Positions 16,526-26,810 of a stretch of 31,516 nucleotides of DNA are shown here, one piece after another. The DNA is from a virus. The stretch covers positions 1 through 31,516 of IMG/VR virus record IMGVR_UViG_3300031576_001302; one strand, given 5' to 3'. A model generated the notes under the pieces. The model had not been told where the DNA came from and did not search any database. It saw nothing but the letters and a program-made list of their open reading frames with translations. Both the position numbers and the translations under genes were made by a program. The first letter of the stretch is position 1. Each line of letters begins with the position of its first letter.

Positions 16526-16743
16526 AACTAACTGATACCGATTTACAAACTCCTAAGCCGGTTTTAAATCACATCCTCATCGAGGAAATTGACGGCTACA
16601 AAATTTCGGAAGTGTTCAACGCTGAAACCAATGAGTGGCTCTGGGTTGAAGTAACTTCTGAAGTTGAGCCAATCAAAAGACCGTTCAGCACAATCCAGGA
16701 TGCAAAAGATTTCATAACCGGTGAAAGTACAAAAGAAAAATGA
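16522..16743 (+). CDS. Small early protein before the transposase, unknown
   Basis: 73 residues, acidic, mixed strands (NHILIEEIDGYKISEVFNAETNEWLWVEVTSEVEP) then a helix. Overlaps the transposase start by four bases, so it is coupled to it. The layout of a short protein translated just before the transposase is common in Mu-like phages. No motif recognised. Confidence 0.55.
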   Translation: MKLTDTDLQTPKPVLNHILIEEIDGYKISEVFNAETNEWLWVEVTSEVEPIKRPFSTIQDAKDFITGESTKEK

Positions 16744-18686
16744 ATAACATGCAAGAACATCCTCACCACTCCAGCCCGGACTCTGTAATTCAAACCGAAG
16801 AATCTTACAGCGAAGAAATTATTACGCTGTCCGCTTTTTTCAAAAAGTGCATCGATGAAAAAATATACGGCAAAGAAATGCTCAAGCTCGCTGCCGAAAA
16901 AAAGATTAACAAAAAATATTCAACGCTGTGCATGATGCTGAATAAATTCAAGCGTCAGGGCATTTCGGGATTGCAGCGGAAAGTAAATAAGAACAAAGGT
17001 GAGCGTTCGTCATTCTCCGAAGAAGTAATCAGGATTTTACAAAGCAAGTTTATCAATCCTACGGGCGGGCACGGTGCAAACGCTTACGAAGAAACTCATC
17101 GTGAGTTGCGGCAGACGGCAAAAACATTTATCGTTCGTTCAACCGGCGAAGAACTGCAATGTCAAAGAGGAATGCTTTACAATGTTGCCGACAACAAAAT
17201 CACAGACATCCGAACTACAGCTTACGAATCGGGAATTTATGAAATGAATGACGGCACGCAGTTATTCATCGGCTCGCTTGCTTCATCAAACCGTTTCATC
17301 CGTGACCTCAAAGCTTCAAACTCAGACACCCTTTTTTTTAACCGCTTCGGTGTTCATGATTTCCGAAATAAAAGACAGCACACTTTAAGATTAAATTATT
17401 CTCACCTGGAGCCGAATGATTTAATTACGCTTGACGGAAAAGTTCTCGACATCCTAATTATCTCGGATGACTGGCGGACAATTTTCAGACCGATGCTTCT
17501 CGGATGTCAGAGAGCATCAACACGTGAATACTGCTATCACCTGGCAAAGACTGAAACTTCCGAAGCAATCGCAAGCTCGCTGTCAGTTGCAATTCAGAAC
17601 TGGGGAATCCCGAAAGTCTGCAAGCATGATAACGGTGCTTCCTACAAGTCGGGAAGATTCTCGCAGATGAAAGAATTTTTCGGAATCGAAACTTCGCTTG
17701 CAACCGTGAAGCTCGCACGTGCGAAGATGATTGAGTCCATGCATAACATCATCGACAATAAACTGAAAACTCAAATCGGATATACGGGAAACAAATATCA
17801 GGAGATGCCGCAGGATACAAAAGACAGGTTGAAAATTGTGGGCGGACATCAGCGTGATATAAAGAAGCTCGAAAAAGCTTTTAAGGATGACCCCGAATAT
17901 GCGATTGCAATGAACTCCGAACCCGATGCAAGATTGAAGAAATCGAAAAAAAGATTTATGAACATCACCGAATTGCAGGAAGTTCTTGACAGGGTTTTCG
18001 CCGAGTACCACGAAAGCATTCACGGCGGACTGCAGAAAGATAAGCTCGGAAGAAAAGCTTATAAAGTTAATTGCGAAGATGAATTGTTAAATCAACTCGG
18101 TGAAAAAATCAACACGCCGAACGGAAGATTGGAATATCACATTGCAAAAGGTTTCAAAGCTGTTAAGCCGGATTCTGGTCTGATTGCAATTTACGCTTTG
18201 TGCTTCGACCTGCGTAAGGTACAGTTAACGACCGGAATCCAGTTCAACAGCAACGATGACGGTGAACACTATTACCATTCCAAGCTTGTTAAATATGCCG
18301 GCGAAAAAGTTTTGATTCGCTTCACAAATGCAAAGCCCGATTTGCTTTATGTTTTTCACAGCGAAGGATTGCAGCAGGCATCTCACAAAAATCAGCTTAC
18401 AAAAGAAATCATGGACGCACTGAAATTCATCTGCATCGCAGAGAAGCAGCGGCTTCTTGACTATGGAGACCAATCGTTTAAAAAAGAACTCGCATTGCAG
18501 AGGCACGAAGAAAAGAACATGCGTGAAATTCTCGGTAAAAAGAAATATGTGCCCGAAACAAATATCATCCAGATTACAGGCAAGGAAACCGAGATGAATG
18601 AAATCCAAAATGCCGAGCAAAGAATTGCCGATGACAGAAAAAAAGATTCTGATACAGCTTATAAAAATTTTAAACTATACGAATGA
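16740..18686 (+). CDS. Mu-type DDE transposase (MuA-like)
   Basis: 648 residues, close to MuA length (663). An N-terminal DNA-binding region (about 25-100) with HTH-like helices precedes an RNase H-like core: Asp232 in LITLDGKV, Asp297 in CKHDNGASY and Glu332 in AKMIESMHNI. It joins phage ends to target DNA for integration and replication. The Asp-Glu spacing (34 residues between) is of the DD35E kind and shorter than that of MuA. A C-terminal beta-barrel-like region follows (about 460-540), then a charged tail with NEIQNAEQRI, which may contact the ATPase. The stop overlaps the ATPase ATG by four bases. Confidence 0.92.
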   Translation: MNNMQEHPHHSSPDSVIQTEESYSEEIITLSAFFKKCIDEKIYGKEMLKLAAEKKINKKYSTLCMMLNKFKRQGISGLQRKVNKNKGERSSFSEEVIRILQSKFINPTGGHGANAYEETHRELRQTAKTFIVRSTGEELQCQRGMLYNVADNKITDIRTTAYESGIYEMNDGTQLFIGSLASSNRFIRDLKASNSDTLFFNRFGVHDFRNKRQHTLRLNYSHLEPNDLITLDGKVLDILIISDDWRTIFRPMLLGCQRASTREYCYHLAKTETSEAIASSLSVAIQNWGIPKVCKHDNGASYKSGRFSQMKEFFGIETSLATVKLARAKMIESMHNIIDNKLKTQIGYTGNKYQEMPQDTKDRLKIVGGHQRDIKKLEKAFKDDPEYAIAMNSEPDARLKKSKKRFMNITELQEVLDRVFAEYHESIHGGLQKDKLGRKAYKVNCEDELLNQLGEKINTPNGRLEYHIAKGFKAVKPDSGLIAIYALCFDLRKVQLTTGIQFNSNDDGEHYYHSKLVKYAGEKVLIRFTNAKPDLLYVFHSEGLQQASHKNQLTKEIMDALKFICIAEKQRLLDYGDQSFKKELALQRHEEKNMREILGKKKYVPETNIIQITGKETEMNEIQNAEQRIADDRKKDSDTAYKNFKLYE

Positions 18687-19570
18687 CTTTATCTGAACAG
18701 CTTGACGAAATCCAGCAACGGTATGAATTCCGCGATGAAACACTGATTTCCAAAATCGGAATCTCGCTGCCGGAGCTTGAATCGTTCCGGCGTAATTCCA
18801 AAGATGAAAATATAATTCATCTCGTTCAGCAATTCGTTGACCGGCTCTCGATGAAAGTTTATCCAACAGTACTGCTGAATGAAATGGAAAAACTTTTGAA
18901 GTCAACTCACAAAGAGAATGCAATCACTGTGATTGGTGCGGTTTCCGGTGCAGGCAAAACTTTCGCAGCAGACATGTTCTGCTCCAAAGTTCCCGAAGCA
19001 ATTTATATTTATGTTCCTGAATTAATTACAGTCAGGTTTCTTGTCAATATAATTTCGCAGCGTCTCGGGCTTCCGTATGAAGGATTAAATCTCTGGCAGC
19101 AGTTCGAGCAAATTAAAATGTCAGTCAAGCGTAACCGTGCCCTATTCGTATTTGATGAAGCGGACCGGCTGACACGGAAAATGTATGAAGTTCTCCGCGA
19201 CTTATGGCTCGACGGAAAAGGGAACTGCGGAATTGCATTTGTCGGCGATGAGAATTTAATGAATAAAATTAAACGCGGTCAGTCACTCAGAGAAAATTTA
19301 ATCCGACTGCTCCGCCGTGTGAAATACAACGAAATCTTTCAGCCGATTTATGAGGATGATGTGCGAATGATTTTCAAAGATGCATTCGTGAAGCATGTGA
19401 TTTCCAATCCTGCAATAAAAAGAGTATTCGAGTTATTCAAAGAACTCGGCGGACTCGGCTCAATTCTCCAGGTTGTCGATTATCTCGAAAAGTTTTCTGC
19501 ACGCTCTGGCGATAAGCCGAATGACGATATGGTCCGCGAAGCTCTTAAAAGAATGAAACTGAAATTTTAA
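18683..19570 (+). CDS. MuB-like AAA+ ATPase, target selection
   Basis: 295 residues. HTH-like N-terminus (ISKIGISLPELESFRRN, about 22-38), Walker A GAVSGAGKT (85-93), Walker B LFVFDEAD (154-161), and arginine-rich sensor region (ENLIRLLRRVKY). This is the layout of MuB, which binds target DNA, stimulates the transposase and gives target immunity. It directly follows the transposase as in Mu, with a four-base overlap. Confidence 0.92.
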   Translation: MTLSEQLDEIQQRYEFRDETLISKIGISLPELESFRRNSKDENIIHLVQQFVDRLSMKVYPTVLLNEMEKLLKSTHKENAITVIGAVSGAGKTFAADMFCSKVPEAIYIYVPELITVRFLVNIISQRLGLPYEGLNLWQQFEQIKMSVKRNRALFVFDEADRLTRKMYEVLRDLWLDGKGNCGIAFVGDENLMNKIKRGQSLRENLIRLLRRVKYNEIFQPIYEDDVRMIFKDAFVKHVISNPAIKRVFELFKELGGLGSILQVVDYLEKFSARSGDKPNDDMVREALKRMKLKF

Positions 19571-22192: not shown

Positions 22193-22404
22193 AAGTCCGG
22201 GGTGAAATAAAGCGGCTCGTCGATGACATCGAAGCTTGCAGGAAAGAACAGGGCAAAGATGTGCTGTGCGAAATCATAATCAACTCAGCAGCCGAAGGAA
22301 ACGGCAAGCGAATCGTTGTTAAAATGAACACATCCGCATTGCTGAAAATTTTTGCATCAGCTTATAAACATGCTGACCGAAGAGAAACAAAAGAGAAAAG
22401 TTAG
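22189..22404 (+). CDS. Small early protein, unknown
   Basis: 71 residues from a TTG start that overlaps the previous stop. Helix (IKRLVDDIEACRKEQGKD), strand (VLCEIIINSAAEGNGKRIVVKMN), helix (SALLKIFASAYKHADR). No motif recognised. Its end overlaps the winged-helix gene by about 35 bases. Confidence 0.5.
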   Translation: MKVRGEIKRLVDDIEACRKEQGKDVLCEIIINSAAEGNGKRIVVKMNTSALLKIFASAYKHADRRETKEKS

Positions 22405-22693
22405 GACTGGCTACAACTCCGAGCAGAGCAGGAACGAATCTTTCGGGCTGTCGCTCGAATTCGCAAAGTCGCAGGATGAAAAAATTTATGCGTGCCTGCG
22501 TGAACACGGTGAGCTGACAGTCCCTGAAATCGAAGATAGAACAGGAATAAGATATACGTCGGTTCACCGCTCACTCAATACATTGATGAAAGAAAACTTG
22601 GTGCTCGACACAAACAGAACTCGCACAAATCCTTTAACCGGAATGCCGAATACACTCTGGAAGCATGTTGAAATTGATTTAAAATTATTTTGA
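22370..22693 (+). CDS. Winged-helix DNA-binding protein
   Basis: About 107 residues from the ATG at 22370 (MLTEEKQKRKVRTGYNSEQ). A start at 22352 is possible. Residues 45-90 form a winged helix: KIYACLREHGELTVPEIEDRTGIRYTSVHRSLNTLMKENLVL, followed by a wing (TNRTRTNPLTGMPNTLWK). This resembles replication- or MarR-type phage HTH proteins. Last gene before the accessory block. Confidence 0.65.
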   Translation: MLTEEKQKRKVRTGYNSEQSRNESFGLSLEFAKSQDEKIYACLREHGELTVPEIEDRTGIRYTSVHRSLNTLMKENLVLDTNRTRTNPLTGMPNTLWKHVEIDLKLF

Positions 22694-22887
22694 CCAAAGA
22701 AGAAACGGAAACTCAGACATTTTAAAAATTGCGTCAAAGCCGGTGTTATATGAACGATAGGAATTTGAGAAGTAAAAAAATACCAAAATCAATAGACAAC
22801 AATTTTTTTATTTCTTCAAATTTATTGTTAAATGAAGTGCGGTCAAATAGCAGAAAACTTAATTAGTAATACTAAAAAATCATAAAT

Positions 22888-23055
22888 ATGAAATACTTAA
22901 TCGGAATTGTTTGTGCAGTGTTAATATCATTGCTAATTCACCTACTAAATACCTATGTGCTAAAATTTCATATTTTTGATTTTTTGTGCGGATGGTTTTC
23001 GTGTATGGCGTATTACATATCACAACAGATTTATGAATGGAATAAAGATAATTAG
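22888..23055 (+). CDS. Small membrane protein (55 aa), unknown
   Basis: Two hydrophobic helices: MKYLIGIVCAVLISLLIHLL at the start and FHIFDFLCGWFSCMAYYI, with a short charged end (YEWNKDN). First gene of the accessory block. The spacer upstream (22694-22887) is AT-rich and starts with GTTATATGAA, shared with the methyltransferase unit. Possibly an envelope or exclusion protein. No family recognised. Confidence 0.45.
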   Translation: MKYLIGIVCAVLISLLIHLLNTYVLKFHIFDFLCGWFSCMAYYISQQIYEWNKDN

Positions 23056-23140
23056 ATGCGGGAATGTAGCATTGCATTTAACGTTTTGCCGCTTTATGCA
23101 GTGCGATTATTAAGCAGGAACTTACCTATGAAAAACGAAA

Positions 23141-23639
23141 GAAAAAATTAAAATAAAATTTAGAGCGATGGCAAATATTTTACCAGTAATAACATTATAC
23201 CAGCCGTGGGCAACATGGATAATGAGAGAATGGAAAACCATAGAAACAAGAACGCACAACCGTTTTGCATCTTTAATACATAGAACCGTTTTGATACACG
23301 CAGGGCAAAGAACAGATGATAGCGACCTGACTGTAAAAAATCCATACCTGACTAAAGAGCAAATATGTTTCAATCCAGATGAAGTAATTAACGGAGCAAT
23401 ATTAGGGAGCGTTTATATTGATGCTTGTGGTTGGCTTTGCGGAGATAATTACGAAAACAAAAGTGCGCTGATTGAAACAACAAACAGGTATGGATTATTT
23501 CTAAAAGATGCAAAACGGTTTGACGAACCATTATATGTGAAAGGTGAAATGGGGATATGGTATTACGATTTAGATGCAAAACAGAAAGTTAAAAAACCAA
23601 TTACAAATGCGGGGCAGGAAATTTTATTTTAATTTTTTC
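23141..23639. repeat. Inverted repeat bracketing the ASCH gene
   Basis: A 21-base word (starts GAAAAAATTAA, ends AAATTT) at 23141-23161 recurs perfectly inverted at 23619-23639. The left arm ends 6 bases before the ATG. The right arm overlaps the last codons and stop. AT-rich but without mismatch, so chance is unlikely. Confidence 0.8.
23168..23632 (+). CDS. ASCH-domain protein
   Basis: 154 residues. Follows the ASCH pattern well: ITLYQPWATWIMREWKTIETRTHN at the start, VLIHAGQR, GAILGSVYIDACGW, then RYGLFLKDAKRFDEPLYVKGEMGIWYY. ASCH domains are beta-barrels related to PUA and often act on RNA or modified nucleosides. Small stand-alone versions are frequent in phages. Here it lies alone between inverted repeats in the accessory block. 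The substrate is unknown. Confidence 0.82.
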   Translation: MANILPVITLYQPWATWIMREWKTIETRTHNRFASLIHRTVLIHAGQRTDDSDLTVKNPYLTKEQICFNPDEVINGAILGSVYIDACGWLCGDNYENKSALIETTNRYGLFLKDAKRFDEPLYVKGEMGIWYYDLDAKQKVKKPITNAGQEILF

Positions 23640-23678
23640 TCTTCAATATCAGCACTGAACTTGCTACGAAGCACGGCT

Positions 23679-23694
23679 ATTGCTGGTAACGGTT
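23679..23694. repeat. 16-bp direct repeat (copy 1 of 2)
   Basis: ATTGCTGGTAACGGTT, identical to 26144-26159. Both copies follow a cassette gene end and lead into a stem. A weaker third copy lies near 23070-23087 (GCATTGCATTTAACGTTT). Confidence 0.85.
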
Positions 23695-23779
23695 CGGGGG
23701 TAAACGCCCCGAAGGGTAGTTTTCATTTTATCAAATGAGACTATGACTTCGGAAAATGAAAATGGCGATTTACCGCCTG

Positions 23780-23959
23780 TTAGCGGTCTGGCTCAAATGG
23801 GCGGCTGTTTTTGAAACTTGAAACATAAACTAAAATATAAAACAATGAACACACGCATTTGATATTTTGATTAAACAATTATTGGTAATTAAAGATGCGA
23901 AGGATGAAGATTTTGAACAGTAACGGCTGTGGCTGTTGCCCATTTGAGCTTGCCGCTAA
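23780..23959. repeat. Empty cassette-like unit with inverted ends
   Basis: TTAGCGG and GCTCAAATGGGC (23780-23802) recur inverted at 23938-23959. Inside is the same leader as in the unit at 25262 (GGCTGT..., AAACTAAAA.A.AAACA, ATG), but the reading frame stops after five sense codons. It reads as a decayed copy that has lost its gene. Confidence 0.7.
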
Positions 23960-23960
23960 A

Positions 23961-24040
23961 TAGGGGGTTAATGAAGTTGCCCTTTTACAAAACTTCAAAT
24001 TAACGATAAACTCAAAAGGGCAATTTCATTTAACCCCTTG
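23961..24040. repeat. Long hairpin upstream of the methyltransferase
   Basis: Arms of about 25 bases (GGGGTTAATGAAGTTGCCC and its near complement GGGCAATTTCATTTAACCCC) around a 26-base loop. One-base gap and one mismatch. It ends at GTTATATG, which begins the methyltransferase unit. Confidence 0.85.
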
Positions 24041-24797
24041 TTATATGAAGTGTTTTTTTGGGGAGGAAAAAAAGAAATTAAATTTTTCATTTTAAAATGC
24101 TTATGAAGGTATTAAATCTATACGCAGGAATTGGAGGCAACCGCAAACTTTGGGAAGATGTGGAAGTAACAGCCGTTGAGTTTAATGCTGACATAGCGAA
24201 AGTTTATCAGGACTTCTTTCCGAATGACAAAGTAATTGTTGGCGATGCACACCAATACTTACTTGACCATTATGAAGAATTTGATTTCATCTGGGCATCA
24301 CCGCCTTGCCCTACGCATAGCAAAATCAATTACTCAAATGGTGGAAGATGGAAAGTAAAATATCCTGATATGAAATTGTATCAGGAAATAATTTTGCTGC
24401 AAGAATGGTTTAAGGGAAAATATGTAGTGGAGAATGTGATTAGTTATTATGAACCATTGGTAAAGCCACAAGAAAGCGGAAGGCATTATTTCTGGTCAAA
24501 CTTTAATATCCCGAAAAAAGATTACGGAGTGCAGATAGGAACGCTGATGCACGGCACACGAAAGAGAATTATTCGTGAAGCTCAAATACCTGAGCACGGA
24601 TTTGATTTGAGCAAAATAAATATCCCGAATAAAAGACAGGTATTGAGGAACTGCGTATTCCCTGAACTTGGATTGCTGATATTAGATTGTGCAAGAGGAA
24701 TTATGAGAGCTGAAAAAACACCGCAAACCTCTTTATTTTAAAATGAAAAATTTAATTTCTTTTTTTAGAGCGTGGGCAAAAACATTTCATATAACGT
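24040..24797. mobile_element. Inverted-repeat-bounded methyltransferase unit
   Basis: Ends GTTATATGAA(G/A)TGTTTTT at 24040-24057 and inverted at 24780-24797 (one mismatch). A second, inner repeat of 32 bases (24067-24098 and 24735-24766) is perfect and touches the start and stop codons of the gene. About 758 bp with one gene and no transposase. It could be a non-autonomous mobile cassette. Target duplication was not found. Confidence 0.6.
24097..24741 (+). CDS. DNA (cytosine-5) methyltransferase, short
   Basis: 214 residues (start 24097, or ATG 24103). Motif I NLYAGIGGN (7-15), an acidic residue after it (VEFNADI), D50 in GDAHQY, motif IV ASPPCPTHS with catalytic Cys71, and motif VI VVENV (Glu112). 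These define a C5 methylase fold. It is much shorter than typical enzymes (over 300), with little room for a target-recognition domain, so it may have a very short specificity or a changed role. No restriction partner nearby. It could shield phage DNA from host restriction. Sits in an inverted-repeat unit. Confidence 0.85.
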   Translation: MLMKVLNLYAGIGGNRKLWEDVEVTAVEFNADIAKVYQDFFPNDKVIVGDAHQYLLDHYEEFDFIWASPPCPTHSKINYSNGGRWKVKYPDMKLYQEIILLQEWFKGKYVVENVISYYEPLVKPQESGRHYFWSNFNIPKKDYGVQIGTLMHGTRKRIIREAQIPEHGFDLSKINIPNKRQVLRNCVFPELGLLILDCARGIMRAEKTPQTSLF

Positions 24798-24831
24798 GCC
24801 GAGCATTTGAGAAGTTTTATTAACCGAAAAT

Positions 24832-25176
24832 ATGGAACAAATGTATAGGATAGGCAAAAAACAAAAGAGGGCGATACTTACAGCAGACGGAAACGAAGTT
24901 GTAGTATTTCCAAAAGGAAAAGAAGCCCTCGCAGAAAAGGTGTGCAACTTATTGAACGCAGAATTGAAGGTTAATAAAATTTCTTCAAGTGCTGTGTTAA
25001 CGGATAGTTTACCGCTTGACAATGACAAAACGTGGAACACACATGATGTAATTGCAAAGCTGTGTGAAGCGACAGACATTTTGTTGCACAAGAAAGATTA
25101 TGATGGACACGGACACGAAGAAATATTAATATGTTTAGAAAGAGGACGGGAACTACTGCAACAAATCAAGCGGTAA
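24832..25176 (+). CDS. Small accessory protein, unknown
   Basis: 114 residues. The N-terminal part (IGKKQKRAILTADGNEVVVFPKGKEALAEKVCNLLN) is a beta hairpin plus helix. The C-terminal part (HDVIAKLCEATDILLHKKDYDGHGHEEILICLERGREL) is helical with a YDGHGHEE loop that I have seen in uncharacterised phage proteins. No function known. A weak inverted word (TTAAC, GAAAAT) brackets the gene. Confidence 0.6.
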   Translation: MEQMYRIGKKQKRAILTADGNEVVVFPKGKEALAEKVCNLLNAELKVNKISSSAVLTDSLPLDNDKTWNTHDVIAKLCEATDILLHKKDYDGHGHEEILICLERGRELLQQIKR

Positions 25177-25183
25177 ATTTTCG

Positions 25184-25266
25184 TTAACGGGAAAGCTTGC
25201 CGATAGTAAGGCAAACAATCCGGCAGACAATAAAAGGTTTGCCTTATTTTGGCAAGCGAATGTTAA
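25184..25266. repeat. Nested stem resembling an attC recombination site
   Basis: Three nested perfect arms: TTAAC (25184-25188) with GTTAA (25262-25266), GCTTGCC (25195-25201) with GGCAAGC (25251-25257), and TAAGGCAAAC (25207-25216) with GTTTGCCTTA (25237-25246), separated by 6/4 and 5/4 unpaired bases and a 20-base loop. This order of outer AAC/GTT boxes, spacer, inner boxes and stem is that of folded integron attC sites, but the outer boxes match the attC consensus only in part. Confidence 0.6.
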
Positions 25267-25779
25267 AAAATCGTTGCTCAAATGGGCGGCTGTAAAAAAA
25301 GTAAACTAAAAAACAAAATGGCAATACTGAACTACACTACACAAATTGATTTCGAGAAAACAATTTCCGAGATAACAAAGATTTTGGTTAGGCATGGAGC
25401 GACTAAAATCGTAACTGATTATGCAAATAATGTTCCAATAGGAGTAACATTCTGCTTAATACTAAACGGAAATCTTGTGGGATTTTCTTTGCCAGCAAAA
25501 TATGATGGAGTGTTGAGAGCAATGAAGAAAGATGGTAAAGTGCCTTATAGATTACAGACCGAAGAACAAGCGTTGCGAGTATCATGGCGAATAATAAAAG
25601 ATTGGGTAGAAGCACAGATGGCACTTGTGGAAGCACAATTAGCGGAAGTGGCAGAAGTATTTTTGCCATACGCAGTTACAAAACACGGACACACTTTGTA
25701 TAAAGAAATTCAAAACAATGGAACATTATTACTCGGAGCGGGCTGATGGCTGTTGCCCATTTGAGCAATGTTTTTTAAC
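25262..25779. repeat. Inverted repeats bracketing the unit at 25318-25746
   Basis: GTTAAAAAA then TTGCTCAAATGGGC (25262-25287) recur inverted at 25755-25779 with only a 2-3-base difference between the two words. One gene lies inside. The same inner word bounds the empty unit at 23780-23959. Confidence 0.82.
25318..25746 (+). CDS. Accessory protein, unknown
   Basis: 142 residues from the ATG at 25318 (MAILNYTTQIDFEKT). The longer frame from 25282 runs through the repeat arm and is unlikely. Strand-rich core (IVTDYANNVPIGVTFCLILNGNLVGFSLPAKY) and helical middle (EQALRVSWRIIKDWVEAQMALVEAQLAEVAEVFLPYAV). I associate this pattern with uncharacterised phage and ICE proteins. No function known. Confidence 0.6.
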   Translation: MAILNYTTQIDFEKTISEITKILVRHGATKIVTDYANNVPIGVTFCLILNGNLVGFSLPAKYDGVLRAMKKDGKVPYRLQTEEQALRVSWRIIKDWVEAQMALVEAQLAEVAEVFLPYAVTKHGHTLYKEIQNNGTLLLGAG

Positions 25780-25836
25780 GTCCCGCCATTTATGTCAGGC
25801 GGGATTAAGAATACGAAACTTCAATTAACAACTGAA

Positions 25837-26142
25837 ATGAATAAAGAAAACGAAACACCAAAAGAACCGGAAACCCCGCTTGCATTAAATGGCGTTGTTA
25901 CCAGCAGTGCGGACACCGATTGGAACGATAAAGATAATGATTGGGATGATGACGATGACGTTTGCGACATCGATGATGAAGAAGATGAATTTGAACGGGC
26001 AATGGATGAGTGCGGACAAATGCACGGTGGGGGGTGTATGCTTGCAGGGACAGAGTTCTGTGATTGGGAATGCCCGTTTAGCAGACAAATGTATATTAAC
26101 GCAAGTCGCAAACGTGATGCAAAAGGTAGATTTAGCAAGTAG
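25837..26142 (+). CDS. Acidic, Cys-rich small protein, unknown
   Basis: 101 residues from ATG 25837 (MNKENETPKEPE). Residues about 25-55 are almost all Asp/Glu/Asn/Trp (DWNDKDNDWDDDDDVCDIDDEED), then five Cys lie close together (DECGQMHGGGCMLAGTEFCDWECPF), and a basic tail ends it. The Cys group may bind metal. The acid tract could mimic DNA, as in some anti-defence proteins. Both are guesses. The leader has a strong hairpin (CCCGCC/GGCGGG, 25782-25803). Confidence 0.55.
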   Translation: MNKENETPKEPETPLALNGVVTSSADTDWNDKDNDWDDDDDVCDIDDEEDEFERAMDECGQMHGGGCMLAGTEFCDWECPFSRQMYINASRKRDAKGRFSK

Positions 26143-26143
26143 C

Positions 26144-26159
26144 ATTGCTGGTAACGGTT
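26144..26159. repeat. 16-bp direct repeat (copy 2 of 2)
   Basis: ATTGCTGGTAACGGTT, identical to 23679-23694. Followed by GCGGATTAAGAAACGAAA (26176-26193), which nearly repeats the sequence at 25799-25821, in the leader of the previous gene. Confidence 0.85.
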
Positions 26160-26223
26160 ACGCATATAAGCAGTAGCGGATTAAGAAACGAAAATTTAAT
26201 ATTAACCAATAAATAAAATAAAA

Positions 26224-26373
26224 ATGAAAAATTTAAAATTTACCAAAAAGCCCGATATTGCTTTATATGCGATGTTATGCTTAGTGTTTTTGTGCGTTGG
26301 ATGCACACCAGAAGGAAGCGAAAACGACACAACTTTATACACATATCTCGACACAATTAATTTCAAAAGTTAG
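26224..26373 (+). CDS. Small lipoprotein (49 aa)
   Basis: MKNLKFTKKPDIALYAMLCLVFLCVGC then TPEGSENDTT: a hydrophobic run ending in VGC makes Cys27 a likely lipidation site (the -3 Cys is unusual). Mature part about 22 residues, so it is little more than a lipid anchor with a tail. Very small lipoproteins occur as outer-membrane spanins and as superinfection-exclusion proteins. Last gene of the accessory block, 20 bases before gemA. Confidence 0.5.
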   Translation: MKNLKFTKKPDIALYAMLCLVFLCVGCTPEGSENDTTLYTYLDTINFKS

Positions 26374-26393: not shown

Positions 26394-26810
26394 ATGCAAC
26401 TCCTTAAAACATACATCACCCACGAACAGCGGAAGAAGATTTTCGCTCTTGCCCGGCAAGTCGGAATAAATAATGAGCAGCTGCATCAGCATGTTAAAGA
26501 ATGGACTGGAGAATCATCGCTCGGCTCATCGATGCCGGCTAAAGCTGCCCGCACAGTAATTGAATGTCTGCATAAGATTCTTGGAATCAAGCCGGTAAAA
26601 CAGGATAAGTTTGCAGCGATGTCCGAAGCTCAGCGTAAGCACATCGATTTTTTATGCTCCAGACTTCACTGGAACGACAAGCGGCTCAACGGATTCATCC
26701 GGCATACGCTTCGGAGCAATGTCGAATTCAAAGATTTGAAAATCCGTGATGCATCGGTTGTCATCATCGGTTTAAAGAACTACTGCAGGCAGCAGAACCT
26801 TGTTGCCTGA
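26394..26810 (+). CDS. gemA: GemA-like regulator (DUF1018)
   Basis: 138 residues. Two similar halves: ITHEQRKKIFALARQVGINNEQLHQHVKEWTG and MSEAQRKHIDFLCSRLHWNDKRLNGFIRHTL. The pattern of QR..I..L....G.....L...V matches GemA proteins of Mu-like phages, where GemA (with Mor) sits at the end of the early or middle region. Thought to affect host gene expression and DNA topology. Here it directly precedes the Mor-like gene. Confidence 0.85.
   Translation: MQLLKTYITHEQRKKIFALARQVGINNEQLHQHVKEWTGESSLGSSMPAKAARTVIECLHKILGIKPVKQDKFAAMSEAQRKHIDFLCSRLHWNDKRLNGFIRHTLRSNVEFKDLKIRDASVVIIGLKNYCRQQNLVA

Follow-up and report, generated by a model that had tools for sequence, protein, structure and literature searches.

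An integrase-less array of attC-type gene cassettes in a Mu-like phage, very probably part of a phage-borne, integron-like system

A block of small genes and hairpins in a Mu-like phage is very probably an integrase-less array of gene cassettes that forms part of a phage-borne, integron-like system. The phage sequence is IMG/VR record IMGVR_UViG_3300031576_001302, analyzed here over its whole length of 31,516 nucleotides (nt; the window), and the block lies at about positions 22744 to 26373. Dense gene packing stops there, as had been stated in an earlier reading of the sequence (the original prediction), and eight hairpins alternate with seven brackets, or gene segments. We also consider it likely, at a lower level of confidence, that phages, probably of Bacteroidota-type hosts, have a self-sufficient second class of integron, made up of a recombinase that is sister to the integron integrase IntI and lacks its I2 insert, an attI of its own, and phage-private, inverted, methyltransferase-rich cassettes.

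The hairpins have the anatomy of integron attC sites. A few mutated boxes aside, each reads TAAC, about 5 nt, L'', a loop, L', 1-4 nt, and GTTA, giving the order R''-L''-loop-L'-R' with AAC and GTT at the ends and an extrahelical base. This geometry, with spacers of about 5 and 1-3 nt and an unpaired extra base on one arm, is that of canonical Bacteroidota integron attC sites read in the same direction. Each gene segment runs from GTTA through the gene to TAAC, and its two ends are complementary to each other. GTTA/TAAC brackets scoring at least 10 numbered 13 in the block, versus 0-5 for eleven 4-mers of the same composition, and in 162 loci, GTTA/TAAC brackets lay between two hairpins in 11 cases, versus 0-1 for six control 4-mers. 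The gene-bracketing inverted repeats and the recurrent spacer words of the original prediction (GTTATATGAA, GCTCAAATGGGC(GGCTGT), ATTGCTGGTAACGGTT and TAACG) were both borne out by computation on the sequence. Its choice between a type not yet described and a distant attC-like family can be narrowed: the attC anatomy makes the system integron-type, and not something unrelated.

The mobile unit is a hairpin together with the gene downstream of it. The methyltransferase unit of the block (unit 4) recurs in two other loci, L001 and L002, with background similarity only beyond the unit. Compared with L001, the hairpin and 5' flank were 93.9% identical, the coding sequence 72.9%, the 3' flank 98.4%, and the sequence outside the unit about 64%. 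Among viral arrays, TAAC was the start of a homology block 137 times versus 15 for GTTA, and the end of one 94 times versus 7, with many other block ends falling elsewhere, and alignments of array junctions switched cleanly at TAAC. Based on the L001/L002 comparison and the TAAC boundaries, the unit is shown, at the level of sequence, to be C-[attC hairpin]-GTTRRRY-gene-RYYYAA. In a circularized unit, the RYYYAA end and the C of the hairpin would rejoin into one complete attC, RYYYAAC-hairpin-GTTRRRY. The genes look bracketed by inverted repeats because the linear array splits the two R halves of an attC around a gene. Canonical cassettes are bracketed too, less strongly (median bracket score of 12.0 in chromosomal versus 14.5 in viral arrays). 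Reading the units as canonical cassettes, with the gene first and then attC, was rejected; it would split four open reading frames (ORFs) and conflicts with the block boundaries.

The non-coding shell of the methyltransferase unit (23956-24795) was 94-98% identical to that in L001 and its gene 73%. This contrast suggests either strong constraint on the shell or replacement of the gene inside it.

Cassettes are gained and lost singly at an attI-like site in related phages. Loci L345, L342 and L379 are near-identical over their shared array, and their upstream flanks are 99.4-99.8% identical. L345 has an empty site between TGCCACTAAC and TACTCGACTTGC; exactly at that point L342 carries one cassette of 190 nt and L379 carries 1,645 nt comprising two cassettes, at least one of which is a methyltransferase. 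L357 and L387 differ by the same kind of insertion, of 1,069 nt. Units with the same ends were also found in unrelated contexts in related phages. The predicted mobile cassette system with accessory genes is therefore supported by related phages, and its unit-level gain and loss was seen there rather than in the lineage of the window. We found no relatives of the MuA transposase of the window in IMG/VR, GTDB contigs or INPHARED and no confirmed relative of its GemA-like protein in IMG/VR, and with no close relatives of the phage, presence or absence of units could not be assessed on its own lineage.

These comparisons bear on two readings that do not invoke cassettes. One is that the units are non-autonomous transposons resembling miniature inverted-repeat transposable elements, whose terminal inverted repeats enclose the individual genes. 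The long inverted repeats bracketing each gene and the presence of a transposase in the phage are as this reading would have it; we nevertheless regard it as very improbable, and rejected it, because there are neither conserved terminal repeats nor target-site duplications. The repeats vary between units and have GTTA/TAAC alone in common, the mobile block begins at the hairpin and not at the bracket, and the three-way empty/occupied site shows no duplication of the target. The other is that the hairpins are static terminators or RNA stability elements between immobile accessory genes. They do lie between genes, and some repeats end at start and stop codons, as a messenger panhandle would. However, start codons fall inside hairpins, the complementarity joins the two ends of a unit, and between near-identical phages entire units are present or absent, with boundaries exactly at TAAC. 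We rejected this reading on those unit-level differences and give it almost no weight.

The genes of viral arrays are inverted relative to their attC sites. A hairpin stands at the 5' end of the gene in all seven genes of the window and in 130 of 134 viral units, rather than at the 3' end as in integrons. Genes were parallel to the hairpin reading in 130 viral cases and antiparallel in four (66 loci, non-redundant), whereas in Bacteroidota chromosomes five were parallel and 69 antiparallel (27 loci, non-redundant; Fisher p ~1e-43, with units within one locus not independent). The viral set was mostly fetched by hairpin motif, blind to genes; the chromosomal set comprised 20-kb regions around IntI and regions sharing the hairpin motif, and type IX secretion tails served to check the phylum. 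The identical hairpin motif in chromosomes accompanies the canonical gene orientation, and the published Polaribacter phage P12002L has units of the same inverted polarity as the window.

The polarity contrast indicates that simple capture from hosts does not account for the viral cassettes. The block could be an ordinary cluster of attC sites lacking an integron integrase (CALIN), that is, cassettes taken from a bacterial IntI integron with the integrase missing, as reported for some phages. The attC anatomy fits such an origin, IntI is frequent among Bacteroidota, exceeding the curated cut-off in 105 of 395 genomes, and 17 phage CALINs have been reported, along with action of IntI1 on one attC site of P12002L (Qi et al. 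2023, PMC9892861). We think this origin improbable. Genes are inverted relative to attC in 130/134 viral units and 5/74 chromosomal ones, and P12002L, one of the published cases, is itself inverted. The cargo differs as well: N6_N4_Mtase is matched by 26 of the 78 viral cassette proteins, with matches to the C5, Dam, MT-A70, D12 and Mom families among the others, and no DNA methylase was among the families shown for 64 chromosomal cassette proteins, which include SMODS, KAP, Schlafen, PIN and Barstar. This suggests that phages keep their own exchangeable, methyltransferase-rich cassette pool, apart from the defense- and toxin-type genes of host integrons. Finally, related phages have a dedicated non-IntI recombinase at the end of the array.

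That recombinase is tied by position to the arrays. At their right-hand ends, viral arrays have a common site after the last TAAC, for which we built a position matrix, and in several records a tyrosine recombinase gene begins just past this attI-like site. A scan with an alignment of six recombinases found 377 relatives in IMG/VR. TAAC was present at most 110 nt upstream of the recombinase in 74 of 75 loci analyzed, and the upstream site often read TAAC-TAYTATATGTA and lay about 56 nt ahead of the start codon. Where at least 2 kb of upstream sequence was available, hairpins of the expected polarity were found in 51 of 54 loci (mean 3.5) and hairpins of the opposite polarity in none of the 54; downstream of the recombinase there were none in 70 regions. 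We preferred these controls to a covariation count for the hairpins, which was dropped as circular because the sites had been chosen by pairing. Cassettes, attI-like site and recombinase all lie on one strand in the related phages. Terminase, searched with one Pfam family alone, was present in 12 of 30 recombinase-bearing records, indicating that many carriers are genuine phages. The idea that a generic host enzyme moves the cassettes is probably wrong, given the dedicated enzyme at the attI-like end.

One IMG/VR record classed as viral (IMGVR 3300043411_001575, 169 kb; loci L287/L316/L461) has at least 15 inverted cassettes directly upstream of the recombinase. In arrays without a recombinase, one small-protein family recurs just after the attI-like site.

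The phage recombinases are related to IntI and lack its hallmark insert. They scored 138-157 bits on the NCBIfam integron-integrase model (cut-off of 265), matching it in two segments, neither of which covers the IntI insert, and their best NCBIfam model was XerA (NF040815). In an alignment of 90 sequences, the IntI-specific columns of the I2 patch insert were 0% occupied in the phage enzymes. The active-site residues R, K, H, R, H and Y were invariant in 22 recombinases, and a structure model with a pLDDT of 87 had XerA (5hxy) and IntI (2a3v) as best fold matches. In a phylogenetic tree, the sampled phage enzymes and a single chromosomal, possibly prophage, member formed one supported clade, which nested with chromosomal Bacteroidota enzymes as the sister of IntI, apart from Escherichia coli XerC and XerD; the tree was midpoint-rooted and had long Xer and L461 branches, making this placement uncertain.

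At E<=1e-65, 87 of the 296 Bacteroidota genomes scanned had a related recombinase. In 20 chromosomal loci (L575-L594), the hairpins were almost all downstream of the recombinase and read antiparallel (20/22), so that the recombinase is followed by its array in one direction, with genes in the canonical orientation. Compared with this layout, phage genes are coded on the other strand with respect to the att sites. The recombinases next to these canonical cassettes also lack the IntI insert, and the arrays are possibly a second, non-IntI class of chromosomal integron. Separately, the 105 of 395 sampled Bacteroidota species genomes with IntI over the curated cut-off (L191-L210, L214-L273) are far above the single complete Bacteroidetes integron that IntegronFinder 2.0, which found few in that phylum, reported on RefSeq complete genomes (PMC9024848).

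Several observations weigh against placing the block of the window in such a system. As had been predicted, the 31.5-kb record contains no IntI-type gene (no match to TIGR02249); it contains no recombinase either, and a motif scan found no attI-like site at the right edge of the array. Unit 4 is the sole unit of the window found elsewhere with the same ends, the R boxes of units 2 and 3 are mutated, and unit 8 is open; the array may be decayed or immobile, possibly in part. The hairpins were called with a detector made for this analysis, not with IntegronFinder. That the phage recombinases act on the cassettes is what we infer, and they lack the I2 insert that has been tied to single-strand attC recombination (PMC7790495).

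With no recombinase and no intact attI-like site, the block is best described as an integrase-less array that could be mobilized only in trans. Like IntI, the recombinase would use cassette hairpins folded from single-stranded DNA, placing the cassette either in the attI-like site or in a further attC. An enzyme of this kind, working in trans from a co-infecting phage or a prophage or as a host integrase, would have assembled the array of the window. The array would now supply accessory genes from the rightward early operon of the phage, including a DNA methyltransferase that could counter restriction.

The eight units all lie on the plus strand, and the start codons of at least four (units 2, 5, 7 and 8) are within their hairpins, where L' and R' are coding sequence. 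At the left edge, a remnant at 22723-22752 has a probable L' arm and R' (GCGTCAAAGCCGGT-GTTATATGAA), the latter complementary to TTCATATAAC at 24795; it is probably what is left of a further hairpin, the opposite half and the gene having been lost. Unit 1 (22753-23082; bracket score of 11) has a hairpin at 22753-22827 (score of 18), R' GTTAAATG at 22827, a 55-amino-acid ORF at 22888-23055, closing CATTTAAC at 23082, and an inverted-repeat pair at 22827-22840/23069-23082. Unit 2 (23080-23690) has a hairpin at 23080-23177 that was paired by hand, with L'' TTTTGCCGC, L' GCGATGGCAAA including the ATG, a mutated R' TTTTACCAGTAAT and closing ATTGCTGGTAAC; its ORF at 23168-23632 belongs to phrog_3193 (PHROG E 9e-22), and a perfect 22-nt pair at 23140-23161/23619-23640 surrounds the gene beginning at 23168. 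The unit that had been called empty is unit 3 (23688-23957), which has no ORF. It has a hairpin at 23688-23779 and the boxes GTTAGCGGTCTGGCTCAAATGGGC ... GCCCATTTGAGCTTGCCGCTAAATA, with R'' changed from TAAC to TAAA, and it contains an inverted-repeat pair at 23779-23802/23938-23957.

Unit 4 (23956-24795) has a hairpin at 23956-24040, closing TTCATATAAC and a bracket score of 17.5. Its C5-cytosine methyltransferase gene (24097-24741; Pfam PF00145, E 2e-9) lies within nested inverted repeats, an outer pair at 24040-24057/24778-24795 and a perfect inner 32-nt repeat at 24067-24098/24735-24766 whose arms end at the start and stop codons and which is kept in L001. Unit 5 (24793-25188; bracket score of 20.5) has a hairpin at 24793-24996 (score of 20.7) with a 24-bp stem and a loop holding the first ~50 codons of the ORF at 24832-25176; its R' (GTTAACGG...CTTGA, 24996-25019) pairs with 25166-25188. 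Unit 6 (25186-25779) has a hairpin at 25186-25262, a bracket GTTAAAAAATCGTTGCTCAAATGGGC / GCCCATTTGAGCAATGTTTTTTAAC scoring 24.5, an inverted-repeat pair at 25262-25290/25752-25779, and an ORF from 25282 (or 25318) to 25746 that belongs to phrog_17260 and whose protein has 62 viral relatives. Unit 7 (25777-26155) has a hairpin at 25777-25897 (score of 14.7), a bracket GTTACCAGCAGTGC / GCATTGCTGGTAAC scoring 13.5, an inverted-repeat pair at 25897-25910/26142-26155, and an ORF at 25834-26142 that starts in the hairpin loop and encodes an acidic product. Unit 8 (26153-26373) is incomplete, with a hairpin at 26153-26274 (score of 14.0), a lipoprotein-like ORF at 26224-26373 and no closing TAAC. 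Homologues of units 1, 2, 5, 7 and 8 were not found among the fetched loci, and the exact 18-nt cassette-end word had no viral match.

The perfect A/T-rich repeats at 24067-24098/24735-24766 and 23140-23161/23619-23640, and also in L005, end at or near start and stop codons and come on top of the R-box complementarity. They may lengthen the stem in the circular cassette or form a panhandle in the messenger.

The phage gene set of the record includes a MuA-like transposase (16740-18686, plus strand; Pfam Mu-transpos_C, phrog_310 transposase with E 6e-43), an AAA ATPase (18683-19570, plus strand; Pfam AAA_22), terminase and portal (Pfam, PHROGs). The block is flanked by a helix-turn-helix, early-regulator gene on the left (22352-22693) and a GemA-like gene on the right (26394-26810). 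The labels ASCH and gemA of the original prediction lacked Pfam confirmation at E<=0.01; the PHROGs are phrog_3193 and phrog_286, both of unknown function.

In dozens of phage contigs, attC-like arrays are linked by their position with recombinases of a family that has no I2, and arrays in Bacteroidota chromosomes are linked with a related family. This makes both the need for I2 and the origin of integrons directly testable. The I2 helix has been described as the innovation that lets IntI use single-stranded attC (PMC7790495). If the proposed system is real, cassettes can recombine at attC in the absence of I2, and the phages may have kept a form of integron that predates IntI. Such systems would be expected to go unnoticed, or to be classed as integrase-less, by software for which an IntI carrying the patch domain is obligatory. 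Our search of the open-access literature, with subscription papers and preprints outside its scope, found no description of the inverted cassettes, the attI-like site or the recombinase.

Among known systems, the IntI integron shares with the phage arrays cassettes of one gene each, hairpins of attC type in which the R boxes are AAC/GTT and one extra base is left unpaired, and, in related phages, an attI-like head site with single-unit insertion. It differs in that the phage genes are inverted relative to attC, the recombinase of related phages has no I2 insert, the window has no IntI, and the phage cassettes and recombinase run in one direction. With eight hairpins and no integrase in the record, the window falls under the definition of a CALIN (at least two attC sites, no nearby integron integrase). 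Integrons and integrase-less attC clusters are known in phages, and the phage CALINs P12002L, TJE1 and PH101 resemble the block as integrase-less attC arrays with methyltransferase cargo (Qi et al. 2023, PMC9892861). The phage recombinase has its best matches, by sequence as well as by fold, among XerA, XerC and XerD (NF040815; PDB 5hxy, 4a8e); unlike E. coli XerC and XerD, it groups with chromosomal Bacteroidota enzymes as a sister of IntI, a placement that is uncertain. Of the features that define the proposed phage system, the window has units of a hairpin with a downstream gene, inverted polarity and TAAC boundaries, and lacks the non-IntI recombinase beside an attI-like site that completes the system in related phages.

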